From: Thermomucor indicae-seudaticae
Taxonomy: Eukaryota; Mucoromycota; Mucoromycetes; Mucorales; Lichtheimiaceae
Direction of reading: 5' to 3'
DNA length: 49,061 nt
Assembly: GCA_000787465.1 (NCBI GenBank)
Contig: JSYX01000239.1
Coordinates: forward strand, 1-49,061
The notes beneath the pieces were generated by a model that did not search any database, was not told the origin of the DNA, and worked only from the letters and a program-made list of their open reading frames with translations. This document shows, one piece after another, positions 3,728-42,960 of this stretch. The position numbers were made by a program, and so were the translations under genes. Position 1 is the stretch's first letter. Each line of letters starts with the position of its first letter.

Positions 3728-5773
3728 ATGATCCAGCTCGATACCCTCAGGATACGTCCTCAAAGCATTTTTCATTTACCCGACGAATTACTGAAATGTC
3801 TGCAGCCAGTTGACCGAACCATTGAGCCAGAAGCCGCGGTGGATGTCACTGCGGATCAACTTGAAAAACTCGAGATCCAGCTGGAGAGTTCAGGCAATGC
3901 ATGTCGAACATGCAATATTACCCTTGACGAGGACAGCTTTCGAGAGCACTTTAAGACCGACTGGCACCGGTACAACATTAAACGCAAGCTGGTTCTGCAG
4001 CAACCACCAGTGGCCTTGGCCGAATTCGAGACCATGCTCGAAGGTAAATCCTAAACGGTCTTCTTTTTCATTACGCGAGCCCCACCGACTTTTGGGCTTT
4101 CAGGCATTGCCGAAAGCATTTCTGGATCGGAATCGTCATCCGAAGAAGAACAAGACAGTGACAACCAAGCGTTGACGACGACGAGTGTGTCCAGTCTGAT
4201 CGAAAAGCAAAAGGAGGATATTGCGCCAGAACAAGATGATGATCAAGGGCCGCCTCGGTTGCTACCCATTCAGAAAAAGTTCTCTGCCTTGAGATGGTTC
4301 ATGGCTCCCTCCGTGTCGGATCGAGTCTACTTTGGGGTCTACAAGAGTCTCGTGGATGAGGAGGATCCGGTCGAGTCGCTGGAGCGGATACAGGCTTCTC
4401 GGTTTACGGCGGGAAAACCTCGCCTTTGGACGTTTGTCATGATCGGTGGCGGTCACTTTGCGGGAGCGGTGGTGGATGTTCAGCAGAGTATCAAGAAGCC
4501 AAATGAACTTTTGGAAAGGGAAGTCAAGATGGTTGCGCACAAGACATTCCATCGATATACCAGTAAGGCATACACACACTCTCTCTCACTTTTTCTCTTG
4601 TGATTGAATGCTCATTCTATCCAAGCGCGCAGGAAGCAAGGAGGAGCACAGTCAGCCAATGATATGGCCAAGGGCAAGGCGAATTCGGCGGGCGCACAGA
4701 TTCGACGGTATAATGAGCGGATGTTGCAGCAGGAAGTCCGGCAAGTGCTTAGCCAGTGGAGGGAGCACATTGCGGACAGTGAGTTTATCTTTGTGCATGC
4801 GCCAAGCAACAATCGAAAGGTGGTGTTTGGGTACGAAGAGGCGGTCCTGGATCGGGCCAATCCACGCGTAAAGACGATTCCGTTTCCGACCCGACGCCCC
4901 ACGCTGAACGAGGTCCGCCGGGTGTTCATTGAGCTCAGTTCGCTCAGGGTAGCTGAAATGGACCCTGAGGAAGCGCGGATAGAGAAAAAGGAAAGGGTCC
5001 GAACCCAATTCGAGCAATCGCGCACAAGCAAAGAGTCGGTCGTGGCCGATATCGGCAGGAAATCAATTCCGGAGGTTCAGAAACTGATCCAGCTAGTAGC
5101 AAAACAAGGTAAAGAACATGTGGTGCTGTCGCATATTCGGAAGCACGAGGGGCTGCTATTGTCTATGGCCTGTGGAAAGCTATCGGATGGTGGTGGTGGA
5201 TTGAGCGATGAAGAGCTCAGGCGATACCCTACGTTGCTGCATCTGGCATCGCATCACGGGCATGCAGCTCTGGTGTCTGGCTTGATACGGGAGCTGGGTG
5301 CAGATCCGACCATCAAGAATGATTTCGGCAAGACAGCCTATGAGATGGCCAAGGACAAGGAGACGCGCAATGCGTTTCGACGTTGTATGTGTGACTTGCC
5401 CGATCAATGGGATTGGGTGAACGAGGCGCGCGTCCCGAGTCCGTTGACTCGAGAGGCCGAGCTGGAACAGATCGAAAAAGAGCGTAAGCGCCAGGAGCGT
5501 GAAATGGAGCGGCGACGAAAGATCGAAGAAGGTCGACGAAAGCGTGAGGAAGAACAAGCAGCCAAAGATCAGCAACAGCAGCAACAACAACAACGACAAC
5601 AAAGGGGTAAACATCAGAAATTGGATACAACAGTCAACAGACTGGGTGGCAGCAGCGGCACGAGCACGCCAATGAATATGGCAAATATGTCACCCGAAGC
5701 ACGAATGCGGCTGGAAAGAGAAATGAGAGCCAGGGCAGCAGAGGAGCGACTGCGAAGATTGCAGAATAGATAG
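3728..5773 (+). CDS. VMS1: Vms1/ANKZF1 family peptidyl-tRNA hydrolase of ribosome quality control
   Basis: Exons 3728-4043, 4104-4562 and 4626-5773 give 640 aa. Vms1 cuts the peptidyl-tRNA of stalled nascent chains on 60S subunits and works with Cdc48, notably to protect mitochondria. Seen here: a C2H2 zinc finger (C59, C62, H74, H80); a VLRF1 domain at ~190-345 with the loop RRKQGGAQSANDMAKGKANS, whose Gln (~267) corresponds to the catalytic Gln of the family; an ankyrin repeat (~410-460); a long charged coiled coil; and a C-terminal VCP-interacting motif matching Rx5AAxxR at 623-633. All family parts are present. I chose ATG 3728 because MIQLDTLRIRPQSIFHLPDE starts like homologues; an upstream in-frame ATG would add up to 30 residues. 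Confidence 0.93.
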
Positions 5774-10860: not shown

Positions 10861-11546
10861 TTAAGAAGTGATTTTGGGTACCCAACTGTTGATCGCCTCA
10901 TACGTATCCTTTCGACGTGCCTGTCGAGACTTTTCAAACTCGCCATCCATCATCGTGCTTGAATCCAGTTCATCTTCGTTCAGGGTCTCAAGCGTGTACC
11001 CCTGCCAATCATGATCCTGCACCTTCAGATCGATTTCTCGTTGCCAGGACGCTTCCACTTTGGAAGCATGGTACCCTTTCCATTCCTCGGATTCCTCGGA
11101 CTGGACAGAGCCACGTCGACCGCCTTCCTCCTTGGTCTCCGATGCTGGACTAGGATATCCATACCAAGTTTCTGAGTCGGTATCCGAATCTTCTTTGCCC
11201 GGGTATCCGTGCCACTGTTCCTCAGGATCTTCTTCTTCCTCTTGATTCGTCACAGTAGGCTGCGCTTGTACGGACGATGCTGGGGAAACCACGACAGAAG
11301 ATGGACCCAAACTTGTTGTTGCATTGAGCATCATCAACTTTTTAGACGATGGGATAAATTCGGGCGCGGTCGGTGACAAGGTCGACTTGATCGTCTGCTT
11401 GCTTGCGGCCGATTCCTGCTGCGTCGACGTCGTTGCCGTCGCCGTCGATTGAGTCGCAAGACTCTTTTCACGACTGTGTTCTCCTTCTTCCTTGGTGGCC
11501 CAGATCTTTTGCAAGTCTTCCTCGTTTTCAGTCGTCGCCGTCGTTG

Positions 11547-11579
<33 letters not shown>

Positions 11580-13047
11580 TTGGTTTTTGGGCCTCGGCCA
11601 CAGGCTCGACTACTGGATCGCCTCCATCCTGATCATGATCATCGTCGTCGTCATCATTGTCCGCTGCTTCAAGAGAAACACTGGCACGCCGCGAGTTGGC
11701 TGCTGTCGCTGGTGCCGACTTGAGCAAGGCCAACGTTGCATCCGCTTCTGCCATATCTCTCTCAAGCTGCAGATCCTCTTCCTCGTCATCTGCATCACAA
11801 GCGAGCTGTTCTCCAGGCAGCAGCGGTTCGACCTCGATACTCTCCTCAATCAATTGATCCTTCGTCAAGTACACGCGTGACAAGAGCCAGTGTTGGGCCA
11901 CAAGGTCGCCCGGCAACAGCCTGTTCAAATCCGGTACGGGTGACACAGGCGATCGAAGTCCGTCCAGCTGAATCGGCTTTCTCGTCGCGGACGACAACCG
12001 CTTGCTGTTCAGCAGCGCCTTTTGGCTGTTTGCGATTTCCTCGACCAAGTCCGGCGACTCGCTCGTCGCATTCGTCTGGCACAGCTCCAGCGTCGCCATC
12101 ACCATCGCGAGTTTGCGCGCTCCGGGCGCAGACAGCACCACCTGTCCTCCTCCTCCACTGGCAAGAAACACCGAAGTTGCTGCCGCCGCCGGGTCATTAT
12201 CGCCAGCCGTGTAGGCGCTGATAATGGATCGAATCATGGCCAGGTGCGGCTGGATCCAAGGAATCGCGATCGTCAAGCCCTCAGACGATGATGCGCCCGA
12301 AACTGGACTCGGATGATAGTACAGCTCGAGCTTACGCCGGAGCATCTCATGATACGCCTTGTGGTTGTTGGCCGGCGACATGAGCTGGGCCAGCTCCCGA
12401 TACAGCTCTCTCGTGCGTGAAGGGCAGCCGTGCCACAGTTTGCGAAGCCGACGCACTTCGGGAAACCTCAGCGCACGCATGATCGCCGCAAAGCCCGAAA
12501 AGTCTCGGTATGCATGCACAAGAAGGTAGGCGACACGGACGAGATGGCTAATGAGGTTGTCTTTGGGGTGCACAGTCGGCACGACTCGAGCAGCCATGCC
12601 ACTCTTTTGTTGTGAGAGCTCCGCCCAAAAGATAAGCTGATGAGCAACACTGTGTGTCAAGTAGTGATGAAAATCCAAGAGGTAAACGAGATTCGTCTGT
12701 TTCTTCTCCAGCTGGCAGAACCATTTCTTTTCGAGCACGACTCGGTTGAACAGCTGACAATTGATGGCGGCGACTTGGCGAGCCAGCACGTCTGGGTCCC
12801 AGTTGAAGGCGGTGGCGGATTGGACGGACTGAATTTGCCGCTGGAGATTGTCAAGTCGGCTGCGCTCCACTTTGGTATCCTCAACGAGTCGCCGTAGTGT
12901 GTTGACCGGTACAGCTGGCTGGCTGTTCTTGGCTTCTTTGAGCTTGTCGGTTGCCTGATTGAGTGCATTTGTGCACGTAATGGTCGACTTTATGAGCGGG
13001 GATAGTGGCACAAGTGGAAGCCCGCTCGTACTGCTAGTAGATGCCAT
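10861..13047 (-). CDS. RasGEF (CDC25-type) domain protein, 728 aa
   Basis: Single exon; I use the ATG at 13047 because the frame upstream of it has no ATG. A Ras guanine-nucleotide exchange domain occupies roughly residues 80-320: ARQVAAINCQLFNRVV, then NLISHLVRVAYLLVHAYRDF, GFAAIMRALRFPEVRRLRKLW and a PWIQPHL segment. These match the core helices of CDC25 domains. A RasGEF-N part is not evident. The second half is disordered and acidic, with poly-Asp and poly-Thr runs. Within the last ~130 residues a short motif ending W-x-G-Y occurs four times (EQWHGYP, ETWYGYP, EEWKGYH, HDWQGYT), which may be a repeated docking site. It is divergent from MSM1 across 245 bp. The Ras-family target cannot be read from sequence. 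Confidence 0.88.
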
Positions 13048-13292
13048 CGTGCGTTGAAGGGTTGAAGGCGAGGGGGGTTGCTGGAAGGAGAGGGGAAATA
13101 AGAGAGAAAGGGGGAAAGTGAGTAAAGGCGAGTTTATATGCACAGACGGAAGACTAAAAAGAAGGCAGCAGAAAAAAAAAGGCACACACAGTGAGAAAGC
13201 GAGAGAGAGAGAGAGGTGCGCTTGAGTGATAAACTTTTTTTAAGCTTCCGGTGTATTTTTCTTATTTTTGTGGCCCCCTCACCTTTCTCGAC

Positions 13293-19649: not shown

Positions 19650-22600
19650 ATGAACCACCCTCTTTTCTGCGATTTGTCCAAAGAACCACGTCTATCACCT
19701 CCGGACCGGTTGAGGCTGATCCTGCTGCCGCCCTTGGATTCTTTACCGCCCTCGCCTAGGACATTTGATTATCTAGGTGCCTAATGACGTGCGCTTGGGC
19801 TGGATTCGTTCCTTTCGCTCATTTTTATTTCATGATCCCGTAGCCAGCCATGTCGTCATTCTTCAGCAAAAAGCGTCTGATCCTCTCCCTCGCTTTTCAC
19901 TTTCAGCGTCATCGGTGCTGGCGCGTCTATCACCGCGACCACAGCGGGATTATGCAAGCATGTTTCGATCGGGCCATTTGCTCTCGATTCCGCAAACCAG
20001 GCCTCGTTCCAGGAGTATCAACGAGAATGCCGCCCTGGATGATGACGACCAGGAGTCGCTGACAACGGTCAAGGGCCAGTCGATTTCGCTGGGAAGCAAC
20101 GCCGTCACCTTTCGCGATGGAACGCAAGTTTACACAGTAGCCATTACAGAAGACGACATTGTCTACAACGCTAACGATTGCATCAAAGACTTCGTGTTTT
20201 TTCTCGGTGAGCCTCTTATTCAGAGAACGAGTCAAAAAGCAGAACAGGAGGTCAGTCTTTCCCCCACCCGGCCTCTTTTCTAGCTAGACTGCATCCTTTG
20301 CTAATGTTAACGTTGCTTCTAGTCCAATGTGCCTAGTATAAAAGGGTAAGTCTATGTTGGACCAATGGGGGTGGGGCAAGTTTTCCCATCAAACGCTGAG
20401 CATGACATGGCATGTTCAGTCGCTTAAAAGAGGCATTCGGTCAACAAAAAGGGGCCAAGGTCTCTAGGGACATGACCGCGTTGGATCTTATGATCCAGCG
20501 TTTTATTGACAGCATCTTGTCGGAAGACAATATCGGTCGTCTTCAGGAGGCTACAAAGAATCTGGTTGAGGAGTGCGGTACTGTAAGTTGCTGTTTTCGT
20601 TACAATAAACTTGGAAGGGGCGTAGATCTTTTGGGGTTAAAATATATGGAATTAGCTCCTAGACAATGTTGCTTCTGTCAATAGTCAAGCACAGGATGAG
20701 CTATACATCACATTGGAAAAGTATGTTACATGCAACGAAAGAATGGATTTTATCTGTCTCTTAACATGTGTGTGTGCCAGCTATGTTATGGAGCAGACGT
20801 ATGATGTGGTGTTCTTCAAAGTTATACAGACCATGCAACCAATGGATTCAAAAGTAGCAGAGGTGCTAGAATCCATGAGCAGCTTGGATTTTGTACAGGT
20901 TGGGCTACCTGCAACCGCGCCAGCTCGTGGACGGGTTCGAAACGCAATCGGTGCCTTGAATCGAATAGCGTCTTGCCGAACACCAGCTGAGAAACTAGAT
21001 CGCTTAGTTGACGCATTCACGGAGCTATCCCGTTCCGAAGACGAGCAGCAAGGTCAGTACGATGAGCTCAAAAATAGATGACTGTCTGTGGTGTTAATCC
21101 AAAGTCTAAGGTGTTGCTGTCAACTCTGACTCTCTTGTGTCGCTGCTCGTTTTGGCTCTAGTACGAGGACGACCACTGCATCTGATGGCTAACGTAACTT
21201 ACATGAAGGTAAGCTATTATCAGCTATTCACGTACCTTTTGCTTTTGCTCAGTTGTCATTATATAGGAATTTACTTTTGAAAGAAATCTCACGTTGGGTC
21301 AATATGGGTTTGCAGTTAGTACTCTGGAGGCGGTGCTGCAGTATATTCTAGAATCACGGACCTATCTTGCCGAACTGTCGCGTCAAAACGAAGAGCTTTG
21401 GCTGGCTATAAGGCAAGGAAATATTAACCGAGTTTCCAAGTTATGTCGCGAGCGATGTGAACCGAAGGCTTTTGATGATGGGCACCCGTCAGAGCCAAAC
21501 AGCAGAAAGCGCTATTCGGCGGCAATGCGGCTGTCACTAACAAACGTAACCAGCTTGGACGTCCGAACTGTGCTGAGCGATCTTCGGGATGCGGACGGCA
21601 ACAATGCGCTACTTTTAGCAGCAGGGGCTGGGCAGCAAGCCATGGTGGCGTTTATTTTGCAACTTGTGGGAGGATCAAGGAAAACAGATGTTAATGACAG
21701 GCTAGAGACGCCATTAATGCGCGCCATTCGGACTCAGTCGTTATTAACAGTTCAACTGCTGCTGGCAAAAGATCGGGGCACACGCGCATCAGTCGGCAAG
21801 GCTCGGGATATCGATGGCAATACAGCGATGCTTTTGGCATGTCAAACCGGAAACTGGGCTCTGGTGCAGAGTCTTTATGACTCGCACGACATTTTTTGTG
21901 CGCAAGACAACACAGGACAGGGCCCGTTACACGTGGCTCCAGGGAACTTACAAGTACGCCTCCTGAACGTGGTGCCGAGGTCGCTTTTCACATGGCAAAA
22001 CAATCAGGGCGAAACCTTTCTTCACCAATGCGTCGATCGTGCCGTTCTCGAGAATTACCTCGAGCACGGTAACCGGAATGTACTGGATGTGGCGGATAGA
22101 CATGGTCGAACGCCTTTGCATGCATGGGCCGCCCGGGGTCGTTTTGACATGGTTGAGGTTCTGCTGGATCATTCAGAGGACAGAGATAGGTTCGAGAAGC
22201 TTGATAATCATGGTCAGTCGGTACTTTACTTGATGGGTGCCTCAATGGAAGGCACGGTCGTTCTAGGCTCTAAAGGGCTCGGCTACACTCTTGACCGTTT
22301 CAGAAAGCTGATGAACGTACGCGAATGGAGACTTGGTCAGACACCCTTGCATCGAATAGCAAAGACCCAGATATCGGATCGTAATAGATCAATCATTGCT
22401 GAATTTCTGGAGTATCTGATACTGGACATGAACGCTCGCGTCGATGCCCTTGATTTTCGTGGAGCCAGACCCGCCCATGTGACGAATAATCGAGAAATAT
22501 TGGATTTATTGGACGGTAACGATGTTTGTAGATGCGCGCACTACCAAACGATTGACAATAGTCTACAGAATTGTCGCTCAAGGCAATCGAGCAGAAGAAC

Positions 22601-23030
22601 AATACCTCGTGCTCGGTGTGGACTGTCACAAGGGCCACAGTGGCGCATAAAGGAAAAGACGTTCAAATCATGTATACCCTTTGCAGTATGGTTGTAAGTG
22701 AGCATACGACATATATATAGAGCGATAAAGTACTTATGGACAGAGAAAAAAAGAAAGACCAGGATGGTGTATCTAGGAGGAACGTCCGGCGTCGACTGCA
22801 AGACTTTTTGCTGCTCAGAAAGGAGATCATGCACGAGCACCCGGAAACGTTTCTGCCGACTTTGCGGGATCTTGTAGACTTGGATAAAATCAATTTCTGG
22901 CCACCACCGATGGGCTTCGTGGAGGAGACTGTGAGACGCCTCGATCAATTTATGCAGTGCATTTCCAGCCATCCGAATCTTTGGAACCATGACTTGGTGC
23001 GCACGTTCTTGAGATCGGCAGAGCTTCAGG

Positions 23031-23061
<31 letters not shown>

Positions 23062-24170
23062 CGGGTTTCCTGTTTGTGGCGGTTTCCAATCAAAACTTGT
23101 TTTGCAGGTGGATGTCTTGCAAATGGATACTTTTGCTCGCAGAAAGCTGCTGATTGAAAGGATTTGCGAAATGTATCCGTCCAGTGCAACTGACAACGAA
23201 GAGTATTTTTTGACATTTACTCAGAACACAGTTACTGCACTGAGAGACGGGCTGCTGAATGTTGTGCATGCCGGACGCAGAGTGCTGCAGTGTCAACGAG
23301 GTAAAGAAAAAACAGTGGGATGTCGATCGATCGATCGAAGGGGGTTAAGGGGACTGACCATTTTAATAAGGTTTACAAAGAGAAATGGGTCATGTTGCAC
23401 GAAACTACGAGGGAGTTATCGGGCGTTGGAATGGGATGACGAAGACGGCGCACCTGCTAAGCGTCTGTGCCAGTCTAACATGTGATACGACGGTAATGCT
23501 CAATGTAACGCCGATCTTTACCATTTGTAACAATTGAACCGCAGTATGGATCATCTGCTGTGGATGATCTTGTACATGGTTTTCAAACAATGCATGCTAT
23601 GACGGATGGAGTCCTGGTAAAAAGGTAAAATTAGGGTTTTGCTTTTTCATTAATTGACATGAAATTTTCTGGCTGTTTTATAGATGGCCCTGCAGCACCC
23701 TTTTTGGCTCCTAAATCGGCGAAATGAGCTCAAGACGTGCCTCGAACAACAACGGGAAGCGTTACGCCGAGCCAAATCCTGGAATGAGATATTCTCCACC
23801 CAAGACCAGCGGAAACAGATCGATCAGACAAAGGGACAAGTATCCAAGGCAAGTGTTGTTTGCTGTTTTGTGCTATGTATATTAGGCGGTAGTAGGGGTG
23901 GTTGATGTGCACGCCCAGTCTTGCCCTTTTGCACACTCGGAAGTTGGGTTGAGATTGAATTATTTTGATATACAGACGCTTCAGCAAGTAGCGCGAAGCG
24001 GCAGTCAAATTGCCCATTCACATCAAATGATATCGGATGAAATGGCACATTTCCAACGGCTACGCTCCGCTCAGATGATCAAGTTAATGAATACGATGGC
24101 ACGGACACAGCTTGAGAGAGAGCGATCGAAGCTTGTTTGGTTGAAGCAAGCATGGAAAGAGTGTTGCTGA
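19650..24170 (+). CDS. VRL1: VARP-like VPS9/ankyrin/PX/BAR-like endosomal protein (Vrl1)
   Basis: Fifteen exons: 19650-19776, 19844-20250, 20323-20345, 20420-20582, 20656-20720, 20781-21052, 21111-21208, 21267-22523, 22595-22693, 22763-23029, 23108-23300, 23371-23492, 23545-23616, 23684-23848, 23976-24170; 1174 aa. Order of domains: VARP-like N terminus (MNHPLFCDLSKEP...); VPS9 Rab5-family GEF (~260-410, with SLVSLLVLALVRGRPLHLM); ankyrin repeats (~440-800); PX (~805-930, RRRLQDFLLLRKEI); then a helical SNX-BAR-like C terminus. This matches yeast Vrl1, part of an endosomal GEF and sorting-nexin coat. Exon 3 is 23 nt. The intron 22524-22594 (gtttgt donor) rescues what otherwise looks like a frameshift. 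The intron 23849-23975 starts with GC. Confidence 0.88.
23030..23107 (+). repeat. VRL1 intron 10 carrying a (TAA)n array
   Basis: The intron donor itself opens a (TAA)8-9 array (23031-23057): the second base of GT starts the repeat. Length change here would alter the spacing between donor and branch point. Confidence 0.8.
23849..23975 (+). other. GC-AG intron in VRL1
   Basis: AAG|GCAAGT donor with acceptor tatacag. At 127 bp it is longer than most here, so a cryptic tiny exon inside it cannot be excluded. It joins VSK to TLQQVARSG in phase 0. Confidence 0.65.
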
Positions 24171-24565: not shown

Positions 24566-25798
24566 ATGGGTTGCTGTCAGTCAGCCGAACGTGTGGAAGA
24601 AAAGCAGCGTAATCAAGAGATTGAAGCACAAATCAAGCGTGACCGTGCTAACATGAAGATGGAGATAAAGATGCTGTTGTTAGGTAGGTAACTCGAGGAT
24701 ATATGTCTTTGCGGGGCGGGGATAGGGCTGATGATGATGATGATGATGATGATTGTAGGCGCTGGAGAGTCTGGCAAGTCAACGATTTTGAAGCAGATGA
24801 AGCTTATTCATGACGGCGGATACACACCGGAGGAACGGGAAAGTTTCAAAGAAGTGATATTTAGCAATACGATTCAGTCGATGCGAGTGACGCTTGAAGC
24901 GATGCAGACGTTAGGGATCACTTTCCGCAACCCTGAGAATGAGGTTCATCGACGTCTTGTTCTGGAAGCGCCACCCCAAGTAGACTATTTGGGACACGAA
25001 CTCGTGGAAGCGATTGCGAGCTTATGGGATGACCCCGCGGTCCGTGAATGCGTGGACCGAGCCAATGAATTCCAGCTGAATGACTCGGCGCGATAGTAAG
25101 TAGTACAAGAAAAATTGGGTCCACAACACACAGAAAAAAAAATTTTAGCAGGCTCTTTTTATTTTTTTCTATATAACTCACTTTTTTTTTAAAGTTACTT
25201 TGATTCGATTTTACGTATCGGCCAACCGCATTATATTCCAAGCGATCAGGATGTCCTGCGATCGAGAGTAAAGACGACGGGTATCACAGAGACGACGTTC
25301 GTGATTGGCGATCTCACGTACCGCATGGTCGATGTCGGTGGACAACGGTCGGAGCGCAAGAAATGGATCCACTGCTTTGAAAATGTGACGACGCTCTTGT
25401 TCCTGGTCGCGATCTCCGAATACGATCAGGCCCTGTTTGAAGACGCATCCGTGAACCGGCTGCAGGAATCGCTCACCCTCTTTGACTCGATCTGCAACTC
25501 GCGCTGGTTTATTCAGACCTCCATCATCTTGTTCCTCAACAAGATTGACCTCTTTGCCGAAAAGTTGCCCCGAAGCCCGCTCTCCCGCTACTTTGAGGAT
25601 TACAAGGGCGGCGATCGATACGACTCAGCTTGCCAATACCTCCTGCAAAAGTTTGTATCCCTCAACACTCGAGCGGATACCAAACAGATCTACACTCACT
25701 TTACTTGCGCCACCGACACAAAACAGATCAAGTTCGTTATGAACGCTGTCAACAATATCATTATGCACGAAAACTTGGCAAAGGAAGGCTTGCTATAA
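24566..25798 (+). CDS. Heterotrimeric G-protein alpha subunit, 352 aa
   Basis: Exons 24566-24683, 24759-25095 and 25195-25798. The protein starts MGCC, with Gly2 for myristoylation and Cys3/Cys4 for palmitoylation, so it should sit at the plasma membrane. GTPase motifs are intact: P-loop GAGESGKS (40-47), switch I Arg176 with TTGITET, DVGGQRSERKKW (198-209) with catalytic Gln202, NKID (267-270) and TCATDTKQ. The length is normal for the family. The C terminus, which selects the receptor, ends LAKEGLL; the fourth residue from the end is Glu, not the Cys modified by pertussis toxin in Gαi. The first intron holds eight GAT repeats. I cannot assign it to a named fungal Gα subgroup. It is convergent with the Rap-GAP gene. 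Confidence 0.97.
24730..24753 (+). repeat. (GAT)8 in G-alpha intron 1
   Basis: Eight exact GAT units end five bases before the acceptor AG of intron 24684-24758, occupying the usual place of the branch point and pyrimidine tract. Confidence 0.9.
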
Positions 25799-30098: not shown

Positions 30099-31331
30099 AT
30101 GTCCAGGGCATTGAGCCAATTTCGGTGCAATGTGCTGAACAGCACGCTTATGCGCAGTAATTATGAGCAGCCGCGACTGTGTCCTACAAAGGGGGAGGTT
30201 TTACTGAGGCGAATTCCTGTTGTCTTTTTGTTAGCCGCGTATTCCCCTGCTGAATCGGTAGCCTTCTTCCACTCGAGCATTGTACGACGAGCCGCATACG
30301 AAGCAGAGCATGCCGAGAATGCATCCAAAAACCCAGCACTGTCTGCGTTTGGTGCACGACTAGGACTCGGCAGCCTTAGCCCTACCACCCTTCAACAGGC
30401 GGTAACACACATGTCAAAGAACGATCTTAAGAACAATGCAAAGCTGGTTCACCTTGGTACGGCAGCCATATGCGATCCTTGTTTGTTGGACGGACCAACT
30501 GAGCGCATATTCGTTAGGCAAGCGTGCGGCCGGCTTGTTTGTCTGTGAATACTTTTATAGCAAATATCCGGTGATGCACGCTGATGCGATTCAGAGTGCG
30601 GCACACGCATATCTCCGGACCGCATCCTTGGCGCGTATGGCCCAGGAAGCTGGAATACAAGACGTCATGCTTTTTGAGCGAGAGGTAAGAGAGGGAAAAC
30701 TTTTGCTGACATGTGGTACCAGGGCTGACCTTGGATATGTAAAGTACTGCAATCAACGCAGAGCCTTGTCCGAATGCTTTTTTGCTCTGATTGGTGCAGT
30801 CTATCAAGAGAAAGGTCCTGAAGCAGCCAAGGAGTTTATACACGGTCATATTCTATCACGGCCTTGCGACCTTACACGGGTATTTAAGGTCGATAACCCC
30901 AAGCATCGGCTTTCGACTCTGTTACGAAACCTGAAAAAGGAACCGGCCACATCACGGTTGCTTTCAGAAACAGGTCGTTTATCAGCGTCCCCCGTCTTTG
31001 TCGTTGGCGTGTTTTCTGGACAAGAAAAATTGGGAGAAGGTACGCTCAGATTGCCCCCCTTGTTCATTTGTATTTGGCTGTTTTGACTGGTAATGTATGG
31101 TTGTATATAGGATTTGGAAGCTCGCTCAAGATGGCGGAACATCGGGTATGTACAGAACGATAAATCATGAGTGTGTCCTGTGATTCTAACCAATTCGGTG
31201 GATAGGCTTGTCAAGATGCATTGAAGAACTATTATGGAAAAGAGGAAAAGGACTTTACGTTGCCGTCGGATGCTGAACGTGTTGAGAATTACAAACCACC
31301 TGCACTGTATTACGCCGAAGGAAACCTTTAG
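30099..31331 (+). CDS. MRPL3: Mitochondrial ribosomal large-subunit protein mL44 (yeast MRPL3 type)
   Basis: Exons 30099-30456, 30518-30684, 30745-31039, 31111-31145 and 31206-31331 give 326 aa. mL44 is a structural protein of the mitochondrial 54S subunit built from an inactive RNase III-like domain and a double-stranded RNA-binding fold. Seen: a basic N terminus for import; NPALSAFGARLGLGSLSPTT; LVHLGKRAAGLFVCEYFYSK; ALSECFFALIGAVYQEKGPE; and the dsRBD-like end SSLKMAEHRACQDALKNYYG. The acidic catalytic signature of true RNase III is not seen, as expected. The 60-bp intron 30685-30744 is inferred from its gtaaga donor; reading through it would add 20 residues. It is convergent with the SDF2-like gene. 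Confidence 0.88.
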
Positions 31332-32740: not shown

Positions 32741-35416
<2,676 letters not shown>

Positions 35417-35720
35417 AATCCTTGTATACATATAAAACTATTCTTGGCTTCAAGCCATTTGCGGTTGCAAAGCGGCAATCGTGTCAAACTTTAAATAGAT
35501 ATTCGGCCTGCCTGTATTTAGAAAATTCCAATAGTGCATCGTGCGCGAGTCCAAGTGGACAAGGAGCTCCTATTGAGAGCCTATCGCTTGAAACAGTCCA
35601 CCGCAAACGGGCTGGGGGCATAAACCAGATGTATCAGCTTTTGGACAGTAAAAGATCTCTCACCAAATAAAGCCGCTCAACCACTTCTTTTTTATTCAGC
35701 ACACGGGGTCCTGGCCAGCC
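35417..35720. other. Short intergenic region between co-directional genes
   Basis: 304 bp. An open frame (35422-35670, +) starts at TTG and has no recognised content. No clear promoter element was picked out. Confidence 0.4.
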
Positions 35721-36478
35721 ATGACGAACGAGCACCAGCGTCCATTGCATCCTGAACCTCCATTGCCTCAGTCAACCGGTACGCTTTTGACGCCGCCGCC
35801 GCCGCCCATTCCAAACGCCGAGAGCATTCAGTTTACAACGATACTGCCGACACTTCCTGTGCATCATGAAGCTGATCAAGAGGAGCAAACGACACCGACC
35901 AGGGCCGGTTTGCGCACCAAGCCTCGGCTCGTTCTATTAACCACGGTGGGCTGCTTCTGGGGCTTCAGCATTGGCTCATTTCTCGGAGGACGGCAGGCGG
36001 GTCTCCAGTACCTGGCCGAGAACGCTCATCGGCTCCCGACGACGGTGCAGGGCTGGTACTTTTACCACAAGACAAAAAACTACCGTATGATGCTGGGCGG
36101 CATCAAGCGTGGGATGCAGTATGCCGTCCGTACGGGAGGACTTTGTTTGGTCTATGGAGCGATCGAGGCAGGCTTGGACGATATACGAGGAGAGGCGGAT
36201 GTGGCGAATTCGGTGGTGGCCGGCCTGACGACTGGCACCTTGTTTTCAACGCTAGGCAAGTATAAGTTGCTCTTCTTGGTTTTCCCTTATTCACTGAGAG
36301 TTTTGCGTTGCATTACGTAGCCAAATTGACACGAGGCAGTTTCCGGTACTCGATCCTGTTTGGCGCCACTTTTGGACTGGTGGCAGGTGGTCTTTCGGAT
36401 ATCCATCGGTACATTTCTGGTCATCCGCCGTCTTACATTCGATGGCTTCAGTCTCGCATCTCGTCTTCCAAACAATAG
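35721..36478 (+). CDS. TIMMDC1/Tim17-Tim22-like mitochondrial membrane protein, 230 aa
   Basis: Exons 35721-36255 and 36321-36478. After a Pro-rich N terminus of ~70 residues come four hydrophobic, Gly-rich segments in Tim17/22/23 style: LLTTVGCFWGFSIGSFLGG, a second one around GGLCLVYGAIEAGLDDIRGE, SVVAGLTTGTLFST and SILFGATFGLVAGGLSD. The segment MMLGGIKRGMQYAVRTGG fits the loop that precedes helix 2. Among the family it most resembles TIMMDC1, an inner-membrane assembly factor of respiratory complex I. Function here is inferred from fold and length; a preprotein translocase relative is the alternative. The single intron (65 bp) starts with GC. Confidence 0.75.
36256..36320 (+). other. GC-AG intron in the TIMMDC1-like gene
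   Basis: TAG|GCAAGT donor and cgtag acceptor. The phase-1 join gives STLAKLTRGSF. The GT four bases downstream would shift the frame. Confidence 0.75.
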
Positions 36479-36927: not shown

Positions 36928-39900
36928 ATGTTCAACATTGCTCCATATATTGCAAAAGCAAGTAATCGAGACTCCTCTCTCTTTTATGTATACGCTTTCA
37001 ACTGAAAACCCCCACCTTTATTGTCTAGTATGTGCGATCGTTGCATGCACTGCGGGACGACCTAACTATTCCTTACAGCCATACGCAGTTTGGAGTCGTT
37101 CTCATGGTCGATGTAGTCGGTAAGGCGATCGATCGAGATCATCTGTTTGTTTCTTTTCTAACGATTGCCTTTAGGTTTCAGCCAAGTAAGTCTGTCTGTC
37201 TTTGCCGAATGAGCGAGTCCAGGCTTTCTGATTCTATTGCCAAGTGGACGACACTCGCTACCGAAAAAGGTGAATCGGGTGCCGAAGCGATTGCATTAGA
37301 AATCGGAGCCTATATGGGTGAAGTAAGGCGCATGTTCGCCCCCGCTCAACGTTTAGGGGACGCTGATCTATATTCTATTTTTCAATAGTGCATCCAGATC
37401 ATTGAATTCTTCGGTGGAGACGTCGTCAAGGTACTTTGTGGATTGCCATTTGTTCCTATGGTTACAAATTGAACCAGTCTTGTTAGTTCCTGGGCGATGC
37501 TGTTCTGGTCAGCTTTCAGCCGCCGCTCGAGGAAAGCATGGCATCCGGTCAGAACTCAGAAACGGATGACACCAACACCAAGCGGAAAACGTCTCGACGA
37601 CAGAAGGGTGTCTTGGTGCGGCGTGCGATCGAGTGCAGCTTACAGTTACTTGCTCGGCTATCGCATTATCGCGTTTATTTGACAGCCGAGGAGCGCAGTA
37701 AACATAGAACATCGTCAGGGGATATTGATAGACATCCGGTGCGCGGACGTAAAGCACAGCGGTTTTTCCTATTCGACGCACCGGGAACGCGCAACGACGA
37801 AGCGCACGGTCGGTCGTCTTCGTCTTCTTCGTCAGGCGAAGACACAATACCTAAGCCCGAGGGGTTTGAATACCCTGATGAATATACCATGGCGTTTGGC
37901 ATATGGAACTGTTTTCCATTCATGCGCCGGAGACATAAGCATAGCAGAGTGTATGCACGGAGGTCCAGCGAATCCAGCGATTCGTCCAGTGGCAGCAACA
38001 CCATCGATCTGGAGCTTCATATCGCCATATCCTGTGGCGATATCACGAATATCGTGATTGGCGAAATGAACCCTCGAAACAATAGTCGACGACTCGAATG
38101 GTTCCCGCCTACAGCAACTCTGAACAACAACAACGACGATAATACAAACCGTGCGAGTCAGCGATTTTCTAGCATGAGCGCGTACGAAACCAATGAACTC
38201 GATAGTTACTTTATGGAGTATACGGGTCGTCTGGAGTATGCCATTTGCGGGCCAGCGGTGGAGTCACTTGAGGATGCCTTAGCGGCAGCCAAAGCAGGCG
38301 AGATGAGCATGACGCCCGAAGTATATGATCTGGCGCTTAAGCAGTCGCTTGAATTGACGTATGAGCGCCGAAGGCAGTTTTATATCGTGAAGGGATACGA
38401 AGAGCAGCCTCGGAGGGGCAGCAACTCGGGTCGTCACCACGGTAATCTATCGAATCATTCCAAAAATACCCAGAGCGCGAGCTACTTGGCGAGTCGACCT
38501 GAGCTTCGGAAGCAGGCGTCCAAGTTAAACATCGAGCCGCTCGTGCCGCGTATCCGGAACAAATCACAGATGCAGCTATCCAGCGAGGAATCGAGCCCGC
38601 ATTATTTTAAATACGTGAACAGGAGTGCTCTTTATCGATTAGAGCATAGCCCTGACGGCAATTTTCCTGCTCAGTTTCGCGACGTGACGATCATGTTCGT
38701 CAGTCTAGGCAAGCTGAATTGCGCTTCGCCCGAAGGCTTGGAGACGGCACAGAAAGCCGCTGTACTTGCGATGCAGATTTTGGTCAAGTATGAAGGTACG
38801 ATGACATCGTATGGAAAAAAAAGATATCATGCAGGATTCTCAACCCTTTGATGCAGGTATGCTGCAACAGTTTGCAGTGGATGACAAAGGTAAATGTCAA
38901 CATGTTCTTGTATCTATTTCGATCCTTAGAGTTTGTCTGCAGGTGCCACTCTACTCGCCGTCTTTGGACTTCCTCCTTTATCACATGAAAGAGAAGCTGT
39001 GTTTGGCGCCAAGGCCGCGATCGAGCTTCGTGATGCGTATCGGCAACTGCAGCTTCCGGATTTTGCTATCGCGCTGTCAACAGGAATTATCTTTAATGCT
39101 GTGCTTCCTCAAGGCAACCCCTATCGTCGTGATCCAAGCATATCCGGGGACGCTATCATTCTGGCAGTCCGCATGCTAAAGTTTCCTTTCTCGAAGAAGA
39201 ACGTGGTTTGCGATTCTGCGACCAAACATCAGATCGGTGGTCTCTGTGAATTCCAAGATCTAGGCGAAAACTTTGTGAAGGGAAAAGTAAAGCCAGTGCA
39301 GATGTATGGCATACAACGATTCGGACAAAGCAGCCGACCAAAGAGAATATCCCAGCATAATGCCGAACATAGCACTACGGATTTCATTGGCTATCGCTCC
39401 GAGATGGACGCGGCAACGCGTATGATTGATGATTGGAACGAGGCACAAAATCATCACGCGCTCGTGATCTCCGGGCCTTCAGGTGTCGGTAAAAGTTTCT
39501 TTTGCAGTGCGTTGAATAAGAGCCTGCTATCGCAAGGTGTTGTGACATGGTGAGTGAATGACCCAAGAGCATTGCCATAAGCCCATCTCACTCATTATTT
39601 CTCGGTTGTTGTTTAGCTGGTCCACAGCTGCAGAAGGTAAGCAGCAGCCAAGAAAACATGGGGATCGCGTATGTTGGACTAACCAGTTATCGCAGTCGAG
39701 AAAAGTACAAAATATTATGTCGTCAGGAATCTACTGTTTGCACTCTTCGAACTTGTTGATTCAGACAAGGTTCCTCCTAATCCAGAAAAGAGATACATAT
39801 CATGTACTGGCAGCAATTTGGCACCACAGACCCTTGGGCCGGGCGAGCGATTATCCACTGGCTCCTCATTGTCAGGAACAAGCAATAGAGAATGGTATCG

Positions 39901-42900
39901 CCAGATAGGGTCTTTTTCATCAGGATCGCCGTCAACATCCGCAAGCAATCATCATGCCGAGGTTAGTAATGAGACGAGTGAGCTCATTATTCGATGTCTT
40001 CAAAAATGCGGTGAAGACGAAGAGATGATGCCTTTGTTCAAGACGGTTTTCCCTGCTCTTGCCAGCGTGGAAGAAAACAAGTTGACGAAGCGACTCGATG
40101 GACGTGCACATGATATCTTGCTGATGGGAGTCATTACGCGTATGGCTCGTTATGCGTCTGAACAAGTCGGTCTCGTGTTCATCTGCGACGACATTCAATG
40201 TAAGGAATGGTATTCAGAGGTAAACCGAAGCAGGAGCTGAATGCAGCGTTGTCTATCGTAGGGGCTGACTCTGCGTCTGTCAGAGTGCTGCAGCAGATAC
40301 ACGAGCAATGTCAGAGGGCTATGCTCATCATGGCTACACGACCCATAAAGGATTACAATGTCACTTTCCTTAAAGATTTCCAGGCCTATGGTTCCTACAA
40401 GGAAATTGCATTGAATGGTCTCAGTGCCGATGAAATTGGCGAGATTATTCTCCAGACCTTACAAACAGCAGTTCATCGGGTGAGTCCCCAGATTGTAAGA
40501 GTGATTCAGGTAAACAAAATAAAAAGAATGCGTTTTGTCGAGTTTAGTCATATTTTTTATACGTGAATAGAGACGAACCGGCGGTAATCCGCTTTATGTA
40601 AAGTGAGTTCAACGGCGCTCAAAGTCGTCTTGACAAAGGTGGGGAACTGATTCCCGGTTTTTCTACTAGAAACATGGCCATCGTTTTGAAGGACTTTAAC
40701 CATGTCACGGTCGTTGACGGCGAGCTTGTTCCGAGCAGCAATGAATTCGACTTGGAGGATCTGCTTGGCAATTTTGATTACAAGCGTATCATCAAGATGC
40801 AATTTGATCGGCTTAACGCGAGCTTTCAGGAATTTCTAACGGTAAGAGCGAGCGCAAAAAGAAAAAGTCGATGGCCATAGGACTGAACCATACCATGATA
40901 TCCATCCAGGTCGCAAGCTTTCTTGACCAGTTTTTCACGATTCAGGAGGTGCAGGCCGTGATCAAAAAGAATAACGCGATTTGCAAAGACGCAGACCCGG
41001 CCAAAATAGCGGATCGTATAAAGAAATGCGACGTGTATCATTTTTTACAACGAGTCGAAAATACCAATGCCTCGGACAACGACCTGATTGTATACACGTT
41101 TACGCACATCACGATACCTCAAAGCATTAATGATATGTTTTCCTATGAAACACGTCTACTATTCCACCAGTTATTGGCACGATATTACGAGAGCCATTTG
41201 CAAGAAAACCCTTCGGGACTTCTCGCTAAGGTGACGCGCCATTACCTGCAGACAGATGCACTTGGAAAGCAGCTCTACTACTTGGAGCAGCTTGCGGATC
41301 TGCACATACGGTCGTATCTGCTGCCAGAGGCCACAGAAAATTTACAGCGCATTGTAAAGATACTGGATGAAAATGAAAATATCGCCGCACAGTTTGGACG
41401 GGTCCATCGTAGCGACATTTATCGGCGTTTAGGCATGTGCTATGCCATGCGAACGCGACTGGACGACGGTGAAAAGTACCTGTTCATGGCACTGGAAGCG
41501 CTTGGAGAGCCATGGCCGCAGACCGAACTGGCTTTTCTGTATAAATTTTGGACTAACCGGCTCGCGCAATACCGGCATCGACGCATGGGTCCTTGGCACA
41601 AGTATACCACCACACGGAAGAAGGTGTTGTGGCAGCGGATTGTAGAAATCATGGTGCAGCTGTCCAACATTTACTTTTACACGGGGAAAGGGCGTGCGTT
41701 CGTTTATACTTGTCTGATTGGATTGAACGCGTGCGAACGACTGGGTGAGAGCGGGCCCAATTATACGCTTTTTCTTGCGCGGAATTCGTTGCTTTGCTGG
41801 TTAAACGACGAAAAAGAGCACAGCATCTTTTACATTACAAAGGCACTACGGCATATGGAAGAGAAGAGTGATCCGGGCACGTTAACGATCTGTGCGTTTC
41901 TCTGCTTTGCTGCGGGCAAATTCAGCAATGCTCGAGAGTTGCTTTACCAGTCGATCCAGGCGGTGAAAACGCTTGACGTGATCACGGACTGTCAGGCGTT
42001 TTATCGGTCTGTGGGACTGGTGATAACGATGCGGATATTCGAAGGAACCTTGGACAGTTCGCCACAAGACTTGCATCTCCTGAAGCAAATGGCGGATACG
42101 GCGCATACCAATGGAGACTACGAAGCTGAGATCTGGCTTGGTGTGTACAATATCGGGAATGCGATTGTCATGGATAAGCTGCGCGACTGCGAACCGTTTG
42201 TGGCATTACTGGAAGCGCACGCTAAACAGGCCGCGGATTATAACAAGATTGCGATTCACGGGACGTTGATAGCGTATTATGCGCGCTCAGGCAATTACGA
42301 GTATGCGCGAAGGCATCTTCGGCATCTGGTCAACATCCTACCAGCCTTGACTGTTACTCGTAAGCATGGATGATGTTTTATTGCGTTTTCGTTTGCGCTA
42401 ACTTTTGTTGTGGTTATAGCCAATATATTCCCTATCTTTGGGTTAATATTTGCAACAATGGGGCTTTATCGGCTGATAGAGGACGAGCAAGTGGATCTTG
42501 TATCAACCAACGATGCCAAGAACTATGACCGGTTCAATCTTGGTGTTGCGCGCATCAACCACGCTTTTCAGCAAGTGAAATTCTGGGAATTCACGCAGCC
42601 ATGCCTTTACCTGGCGAGAGCGCTACCTTACATTAGTACTGGACGCACAGTGGAAGGCTACTTGGTAAGGCCAGTAACAGATAGACAAGAGCAATGGGCC
42701 CGGATCTCATACCAGTTTCAACCCAGGTACTCCGGCATGGTATCTACGAGATGCATTTCATCCAAGAAATCCGGTTCCTAAAGGCATACTACTGGGCGAA
42801 CCTTGGCAAGTATGCTTTTACGCCATCCGACCGTATTGAGTGGACAAAGCAAGCGAGAGCCGACTTTGACAGTCTGGAAATACCTGCTCATATCTATTGC

Positions 42901-42960
42901 AACCCTGACCCAGCACGTTTCTACGCCCGCGGAAGGCCTGCGGATCTCTGTGCAGAGTAA
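36928..42960 (+). CDS. Soluble adenylyl cyclase (ADCY10)-like protein, 1701 aa
   Basis: Sixteen exons: 36928-36957, 37029-37119, 37175-37185, 37245-37322, 37389-37430, 37487-38795, 38857-38889, 38943-39549, 39617-39636, 39696-40199, 40262-40509, 40571-40602, 40670-40841, 40910-42359, 42420-42664, 42727-42960. Two class III cyclase domains, then a P-loop ATPase (GPSGVGKS 709-716; DDIQWAD ~905-911; TGGNPLYVK) and a long TPR-like C terminus: the ADCY10 layout and length. No membrane helix, so soluble. Domain 1 keeps both metal Asp (D38, D88) but carries a ~200-residue disordered insert. In domain 2 the positions of human K334, T405 and N412 read Gln525, Ser597 and Ile604, while Arg608 is kept. 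Cyclase activity is therefore uncertain. The first intron is GC-AG; exon 3 is 11 nt. Confidence 0.92.
36958..37028 (+). other. GC-AG intron, first intron of the cyclase homologue
   Basis: AAA|GCAAGT donor, tctag acceptor and a caactga branch-like site near 37000. It joins MFNIAPYIAK to YVRSLHALRD in phase 0. Confidence 0.65.
37175..37185 (+). other. 11-nt micro-exon of the cyclase homologue
   Basis: GTTTCAGCCAA, between introns 37120-37174 and 37186-37244, supplies Phe-Ser-Gln after the metal-binding VDVVG. Skipping it breaks the frame. The next exon begins at TGG (37245), which restores the length seen in other cyclases. Confidence 0.65.

Follow-up and report, generated by a model that had tools for sequence, protein, structure and literature searches.

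A soluble adenylyl cyclase-like protein of Mucoromycotina and Mortierellomycotina lacks an active-site Asn and may be a pseudo-cyclase

The 49,061-nucleotide contig JSYX01000239.1 of Thermomucor indicae-seudaticae (assembly GCA_000787465.1), referred to here in its full length as the window, carries on its forward strand (36928..42960) a gene of 16 exons without internal stops, which encodes a 1701-residue homologue of human soluble adenylyl cyclase (sAC, ADCY10). The two metal-binding Asp residues and the Arg of the active site are retained, whereas the position of human Asn412 is occupied by Ile, and by Ile or Val throughout the aligned homologues from Mucoromycotina and Mortierellomycotina. 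Judging from sequence, we lean towards a catalytically crippled sAC-like module, a pseudo-cyclase whose head may sense metal-nucleotide and control the ATPase.

The family was aligned as 137 rows, comprising the window protein, 64 other Mucoromycotina and 72 Mortierellomycotina (P0017, P0215 and P0279 being assigned to a group by similarity); the alignment was used without hand correction, and counts refer to the rows covering each position. Asp occupies the human D47 position in 84/84 rows (D38 in the window protein) and the D99 position in 121/122 (D88), where the single Ser, in P0040, comes from an apparently broken gene model; domain 1 thus keeps both metal Asp residues, as a first-pass annotation of the window had stated. 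The same annotation had placed Gln525, Ser597 and Ile604 at human Lys334, Thr405 and Asn412, with only Arg608 kept, and profile alignment agrees: Lys334 corresponds to Gln in 131/132 rows, Thr405 to Ala (101), Gly (24) or Ser (10) in 135/135, Asn412 to Val (97) or Ile (38) with Asn in 0/135, and Arg416 to Arg in 135/135. The Asn and the Arg together form the NxxxR motif of class III cyclases. Neither a Lys nor an Asn sits in the active site, and because the Gln and the Ile/Val recur across the rows, window protein included, the altered residues do not stem from chance or model error. The Asn has not moved to a neighbouring position (it occurs within 597-613 in only 3/137 rows, at 611 or 613), nor can the mirror-image site be taken as the active one, the metal positions of domain 2 being mostly occupied by Ser and Ala and domain 1 having no NxxxR. 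Compared with human ADCY10 (PDB 4clf, 4clw), the window protein differs by Lys334 to Gln, Thr405 to Ser, Asn412 to Ile, Lys144 to His (His in 131/131 rows) and Arg176 to Glu, and by a long low-complexity insert in domain 1; the change of Thr405 to Ser, at a position where the family has Ala, Gly or Ser, is mild. Because tests for the Lys/Thr pair and for the Asn came out negative, we file the protein as sAC-like and not as an adenylyl cyclase.

Homology to the human enzyme is clear at the level of the family. A 48-row family profile, which includes bacterial rows, aligned with human sAC across both cyclase domains (E 2.6e-72), pairing human D47, D99 and R416 with conserved Asp, Asp and Arg; opposite Lys334 stands Gln, opposite Thr405 a small residue and opposite Asn412 Val/Ile. 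The window protein alone, in an earlier gene model (model B, described below), matched human sAC at E 2.9e-15, mostly via domain 2, and its domain 1 stretch alone matched weakly (i-Evalue 0.086). A Pfam scan of model B reported no match to the cyclase family PF00211, and none to leucine-rich repeat (LRR) or PP2C domains, but placed a P-loop ATPase (AAA_16, E 2.7e-12) downstream of the cyclase domains; the Walker A Lys is kept in 132/132 rows and the Walker B Asp in 117/118. In a structure model of the relative P0062, two cyclase domains lie in one chain with an sAC-like fold, and the equivalents of I604 (in the helix after the conserved strand) and Q525 (in the hairpin strand) lie where the class III fold would have them. 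The family profile also matched the tetratricopeptide repeats (TPR) of kinesin light chain (E 2.3e-5), which lends weak support to a TPR-like tail; the tail alone, searched against the PDB, gave a chance match only (E 0.4). The full ADCY10 layout proposed in the first-pass annotation is thus borne out for the two cyclase domains and the ATPase, and weakly supported for the tail.

Alongside the 137 rows, the comparison took in eight chytrid relatives and eight others, the latter drawn from 22 non-chytrid proteins (P0068-P0089) and chosen before their residues were viewed. Homologue rows came partly from the best 120 of 353 matches and partly from scoring the candidates that shared most words, so that Mucoromycotina or Mortierellomycotina proteins with Asn may lie among matches beyond those listed; Glomeromycotina were absent among the matches listed. 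Chytrid relatives P0116, P0155 and P0189 were recovered with residues 1-900 of P0067, a record fused to FG-GAP repeats. Unlike the window family, most of the chytrid proteins (P0116, P0155, P0281 and others) keep Asn412 (6/8, P0282 having Cys and the P0229 model being broken there). They share Gln at the Lys334 position (7/7 covering), His at the Lys144 position (8/8) and the first and second metal Asp (8/8, and 7/7 covering), and at the Arg176 position 6/8 have Gly. Asn and Arg are both kept in 8/8 of the other relatives, two of which likewise combine Gln with a retained Asn. One chytrid record, P0066 of Quaeritorhiza haematococci, keeps Asn412 and is without the block holding D99 (a real loss or a model error); it groups with P0072, which belongs to the eight non-chytrid relatives, apart from the other chytrids.

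A tree of 100 rows (2 of 102 were dropped as too gappy), including 21 of the 72 Mortierellomycotina and computed with the four active-site columns excluded, unites Mucoromycotina and Mortierellomycotina in one 84-row branch (SH-aLRT 100, a likelihood-ratio branch test and the only support used; several branches are long). The sister of this branch is formed by 7/8 chytrid relatives (SH-aLRT 94), with rooting uncertain; no branch separates the chosen outgroup from the remaining rows, 2 of its rows falling on the wrong side. The state of the Asn requires three changes in total, and the row states agree with a change on the 84-row stem plus single changes in P0229 and P0282. Because chytrids have the Gln yet mostly keep the Asn, the replacement of Lys by Gln is the older change and cannot on its own be read as inactivity; the replacement of Asn by Ile/Val is younger, most simply a single event on the common stem. 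The window gene would accordingly be a local copy of a conserved family whose ancestor had the usual Asn. Within the tree the window protein groups with Phascolomyces, Fennellomyces and Dichotomocladium (SH-aLRT 100), in a 30-row branch that reflects multiplication of the gene in Mucorales; of the remaining 35 Mucoromycotina rows, some fall elsewhere in the tree and some were too short to enter it. Several species of Mucorales and Mortierellomycotina hold multiple copies, Dichotomocladium elegans for example having three records (P0005, P0032, P0056). In the draft genome of T. indicae-seudaticae itself (735 contigs, searched exon by exon with the best candidates scored), the window protein (model B) and the paralogue P0053 as queries each turned up a single copy.

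Conservation of the cyclase head was gauged as mean column entropy over chosen blocks, giving 1.17 for domain 1 (28-96 and 275-379), 1.09 for domain 2 (466-659) and 1.56 for the ATPase (690-759 and 885-949). The cyclase blocks therefore vary less than the ATPase blocks, which argues against decay. Near-invariant columns number 78 of the 319 cyclase columns scored and include D38, D88, the DDKG motif, G600, D601, R608 and KGK 644-646; the pocket is thus under selection for something. I604 and S597, which vary as I/V and A/G/S, are not among them (ranks 138 and 154 of 319). Selection alone cannot separate binding from turnover.

With two Asp, the Arg, DDKG and VKGK kept, the single composite site would still bind a divalent metal and a nucleoside triphosphate; with the Asn replaced by an aliphatic residue, turnover there would be very poor or nil. 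These features together suggest a metal-nucleotide site with crippled chemistry that serves as a sensor head, and the P-loop ATPase and tail would be the output, responding to nucleotide or ion occupancy of the head. The earlier proposal, in which the protein may have no cyclase activity or may drive its ATPase as a sensor of nucleotide, stays the best, if unproven, reading. A fuller version, which we offer only tentatively, is that in the ancestor of Mucoromycotina and Mortierellomycotina an sAC became a dedicated sensor of metal-nucleotide and perhaps of divalent cations: losing the Asn would have stopped turnover, the acidic residue at the bicarbonate-switch position would supply a third acid beside the metal Asp, and the head would gate a STAND-like ATPase without cyclic AMP (cAMP).

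A probable source of cAMP is at hand elsewhere in the genome. A PF00211 search, which did not report the window gene, recovered two cyclase genes: L011, whose LRR, PP2C and cyclase domains lie in neighbouring frames treated here as a single gene, and L012, with LRR and cyclase domains and a PP2C-like frame. Both have the Asp pair, a Lys before the second Asp, and a VVNKASR motif with Asn and Arg, and we take both to be of the known fungal Cyr1 type (LRR-PP2C adenylyl cyclase). They share the class III catalytic fold with the sAC-like protein but have a single cyclase domain after the LRRs, and no ATPase/TPR tail was found in the stretches read. Since these genes carry the usual residues, the fungus could do without the window gene for cAMP, which would be made by the LRR-type cyclases; their presence also means that the contrast with Dikarya drawn in the first-pass annotation is not either/or, and its idea of a separate cAMP branch finds no positive support.

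The strongest rival is that the protein is a working adenylyl cyclase, perhaps slow or tightly regulated, in which the metal Asp, the Arg and the phosphate loops suffice and the Asn is dispensable. Several points favour it or weigh against a pseudo-cyclase. The near-invariant metal Asp, Arg and pocket (DDKG and KGK included) are equally expected of an active enzyme; the entropy blocks cover neither the domain 1 insert nor the variable central part of the ATPase; and the structure model is that of P0062, about 50% identical, standing in for the window protein. Further points come from the literature, cited throughout by PMC number. The role given for Asn412 is 'product release (steric clash)', and Table 1 of the same paper prints 'Arg414' at this position of a salmon sAC reported active (PMC12867704); if this is not a misprint, the Asn would be dispensable. 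The chytrid rhodopsin guanylyl cyclase NeoR, a fungal class III domain without the NxxxR motif, is inactive alone, which the missing motif may explain, with the Arg being stressed; its degenerate site seems regulatory, a role that the authors call unconfirmed, and activity was not restored when Asn and Arg were put into it (PMC12264004). The motif is thus not the whole story, and the Arg stressed for NeoR is kept here. NeoR also differs in having a heterodimer partner and a rhodopsin fusion, in lacking the Arg as well as the Asn, and in not being a tandem sAC with an ATPase. Gln at the Lys334 position, moreover, is found in chytrid and two other relatives with Asn, and authors working on M. 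lusitanicus suggest that an adenylyl cyclase gene besides cyr1 could participate (PMC9226013). Against activity stand the loss of a hydrogen-bonding side chain in 135/135 rows, with hardly an Asn nearby, and the two LRR-type cyclases with the usual residues. The salmon Arg414, the product-release role and the failure to restore NeoR are why we hold the pseudo-cyclase with slight preference only and grant an active cyclase a clearly lower probability. Elsewhere the Asn is named among the binding-pocket residues (PMC7289801), and a literature search found nothing direct on Asn mutants. Nor did any of the open-licence papers listed in searches describe the sAC-like family in fungi, although a description may still be in print. 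A further class III adenylyl cyclase-like ATP-binding protein, from P. aeruginosa (PDB 6yii), is bacterial and was compared by title and alignment scores only.

The replacement of Lys334 by Gln and of Thr405 by Ala/Gly/Ser falls in the base-reading pocket, and the protein might cyclise another nucleotide (GTP or a pyrimidine), both base-reading residues being different. However, the Gln is shared with chytrids and predates the loss of the Asn, which affects chemistry and not base choice, and the residues that RGC1, a fungal guanylyl cyclase, has there are Glu/Cys (E419/C488) and not Gln/Ala (PMC12264004); we consider a change of substrate unlikely.

Human sAC binds bicarbonate via Lys95 and Arg176, and Arg176 releases Asp99 (PMC12250328). 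In Mucor, CO2/bicarbonate drives yeast growth with raised protein kinase A activity, a step ascribed to an adenylyl cyclase whose gene is not named in the excerpts read (PMC3764228, PMC6989107, the latter citing mammalian sAC work). The window family could accordingly be pictured as the bicarbonate/CO2 sensor of yeast-hypha switching in Mucor, and the Lys95 equivalent is kept in 118/122 rows. The Arg176 position, however, is Glu/Asp in 126/131 and never Arg, a charge reversal that disfavours a sensor of the human type, as entertained in the first-pass annotation. Sea urchin and salmon sACs, each without one of the two residues, gave no bicarbonate response, and many metazoan sACs also lack one of them (PMC12867704). 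We therefore give human-type sensing little credence; the family is nevertheless an obvious candidate for CO2/bicarbonate reading in Mucor if this were to proceed other than via the human-type site. Separately, MU264, a carotenoid mutant of M. circinelloides, carries a 'class 3 adenylyl cyclase' truncated through an 11-bp deletion (PMC4897934).

Two explanations fare worse still. Class III cyclases work as dimers, and chytrid NeoR needs a partner, so the protein might be a half-enzyme to which another cyclase-domain protein supplies the missing Asn; but both halves lie in one chain, modelled for P0062 with an sAC-like fold, the draft genome yielded no further cyclase domains beyond the two LRR-type ones, and a second family copy was not found, which makes a partner very improbable. 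Least credible of all is an error of gene modelling or sequencing, or a pseudogene in decay, since the frame problem near residue 45 in the first model is solved by a standard 59-nt intron, relatives share the residues and conservation is strong.

If the protein is indeed a pseudo-cyclase, a second-messenger enzyme would have become a non-catalytic regulator across a fungal branch, providing a natural experiment on what a cyclase head does beyond cAMP, and the source name 'Adenylate cyclase type 10' carried by P0275 (Mortierellomycotina) may mislead as to function. The fungal groups concerned would include Mucor, whose CO2-driven dimorphism is without a named sensor gene in the excerpts cited above, and the gene would be a deletable candidate for CO2/bicarbonate sensing there, in a protein whose human-type binding site is not conserved.

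The gene model is given in Table 1 and reproduces exactly the numbering D38, D88, Q525, S597, I604 and R608 of the first-pass annotation, whose own model was already correct. Its 15 introns comprise 14 GT-AG and 1 GC-AG, and P0001 of Phascolomyces articulosus is 72% identical over query residues 1-1700, with both termini matching. Model B, with a 32-nt intron near residue 45 and 9 extra residues, was rejected when alignment with homologues showed the true acceptor; the homologue-guided 59-nt intron ends at 37244, giving the reading GFSQ-WTTLATEKGE. Model B had served as query for part of the homologue collection, the single-protein match to human sAC, the Pfam scan and one own-genome copy search.

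Table 1. Coordinates of the sAC-like gene and its active-site codons in the window
Feature	Position	Strand	Remarks
Whole coding span, sAC-like gene	36928..42960	+	gene model; ends match P0001
Exon 1, aa 1-10	36928..36957	+	N-terminus MFNIAPYIAKYVRSLHA common to P0001
GC-AG intron, directly after exon 1	36958-37028	+	gene model
Exon 2, aa 11-41	37029..37119	+	cyclase domain 1 begins; metal Asp D38 (human D47) at 37110-37112
Exon 3 (11 nt), aa 41-44	37175..37185	+	reading GFSQ then W/L-TT backed by homologues
Exon 4, aa 45-70	37245..37322	+
Exon 5, aa 71-84	37389..37430	+	last codon K84 (human K95)
Exon 6, aa 85-521	37487..38795	+	low-complexity insert in domain 1; domain 2 begins
D88 (human D99)	37496-37498		exon 6
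H262 (human K144)	38018-38020		exon 6
E346 (human R176)	38270-38272		exon 6
Exon 7, aa 521-532	38857..38889	+	Q525 (human K334) at 38868-38870; DDKG motif
Exon 8, aa 532-734	38943..39549	+	VKGK 643-646; Walker A GPSGVGKS from aa 709
S597 (human T405)	39137-39139		exon 8
I604 (human N412)	39158-39160		exon 8
R608 (human R416)	39170-39172		exon 8
Exon 9, aa 734-741	39617..39636	+
Exon 10, aa 741-909	39696..40199	+	Walker B ..FICDDIQ; Pfam AAA_16 E 2.7e-12 (earlier model B)
Exon 11, aa 909-991	40262..40509	+
Exon 12, aa 992-1002	40571..40602	+	RTGGNPLYVK
Exon 13, aa 1002-1059	40670..40841	+
Exon 14, aa 1060-1543	40910..42359	+	tail, TPR-like by family profile
Exon 15, aa 1543-1624	42420..42664	+
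Exon 16, aa 1625-1701 and stop	42727..42960	+

Upstream, the sAC-like gene is adjoined by a Tim17/Tim22/Tim23 family protein (35652-36317, +), preceded by exons with a JmjC domain (33945-34586, +) and an RNase III domain (30406-31083, +). An exon of a heterotrimeric G-protein alpha subunit (25193-25795, +; PF00503, E 5.4e-87) lies ~11 kb upstream of the gene. An ankyrin-repeat frame followed by a PX-domain frame (21267-23482, +) perhaps forms one gene, and a RasGEF domain protein with a PAM2 motif is encoded on the opposite strand (10864-13239, -). At 4604-5770 (+), a VLRF1 release-factor domain (PF18826, E 8e-44) is accompanied by ankyrin-like repeats that narrowly miss the Pfam cut-off; the protein is presumably of the Vms1/ANKZF1 type.
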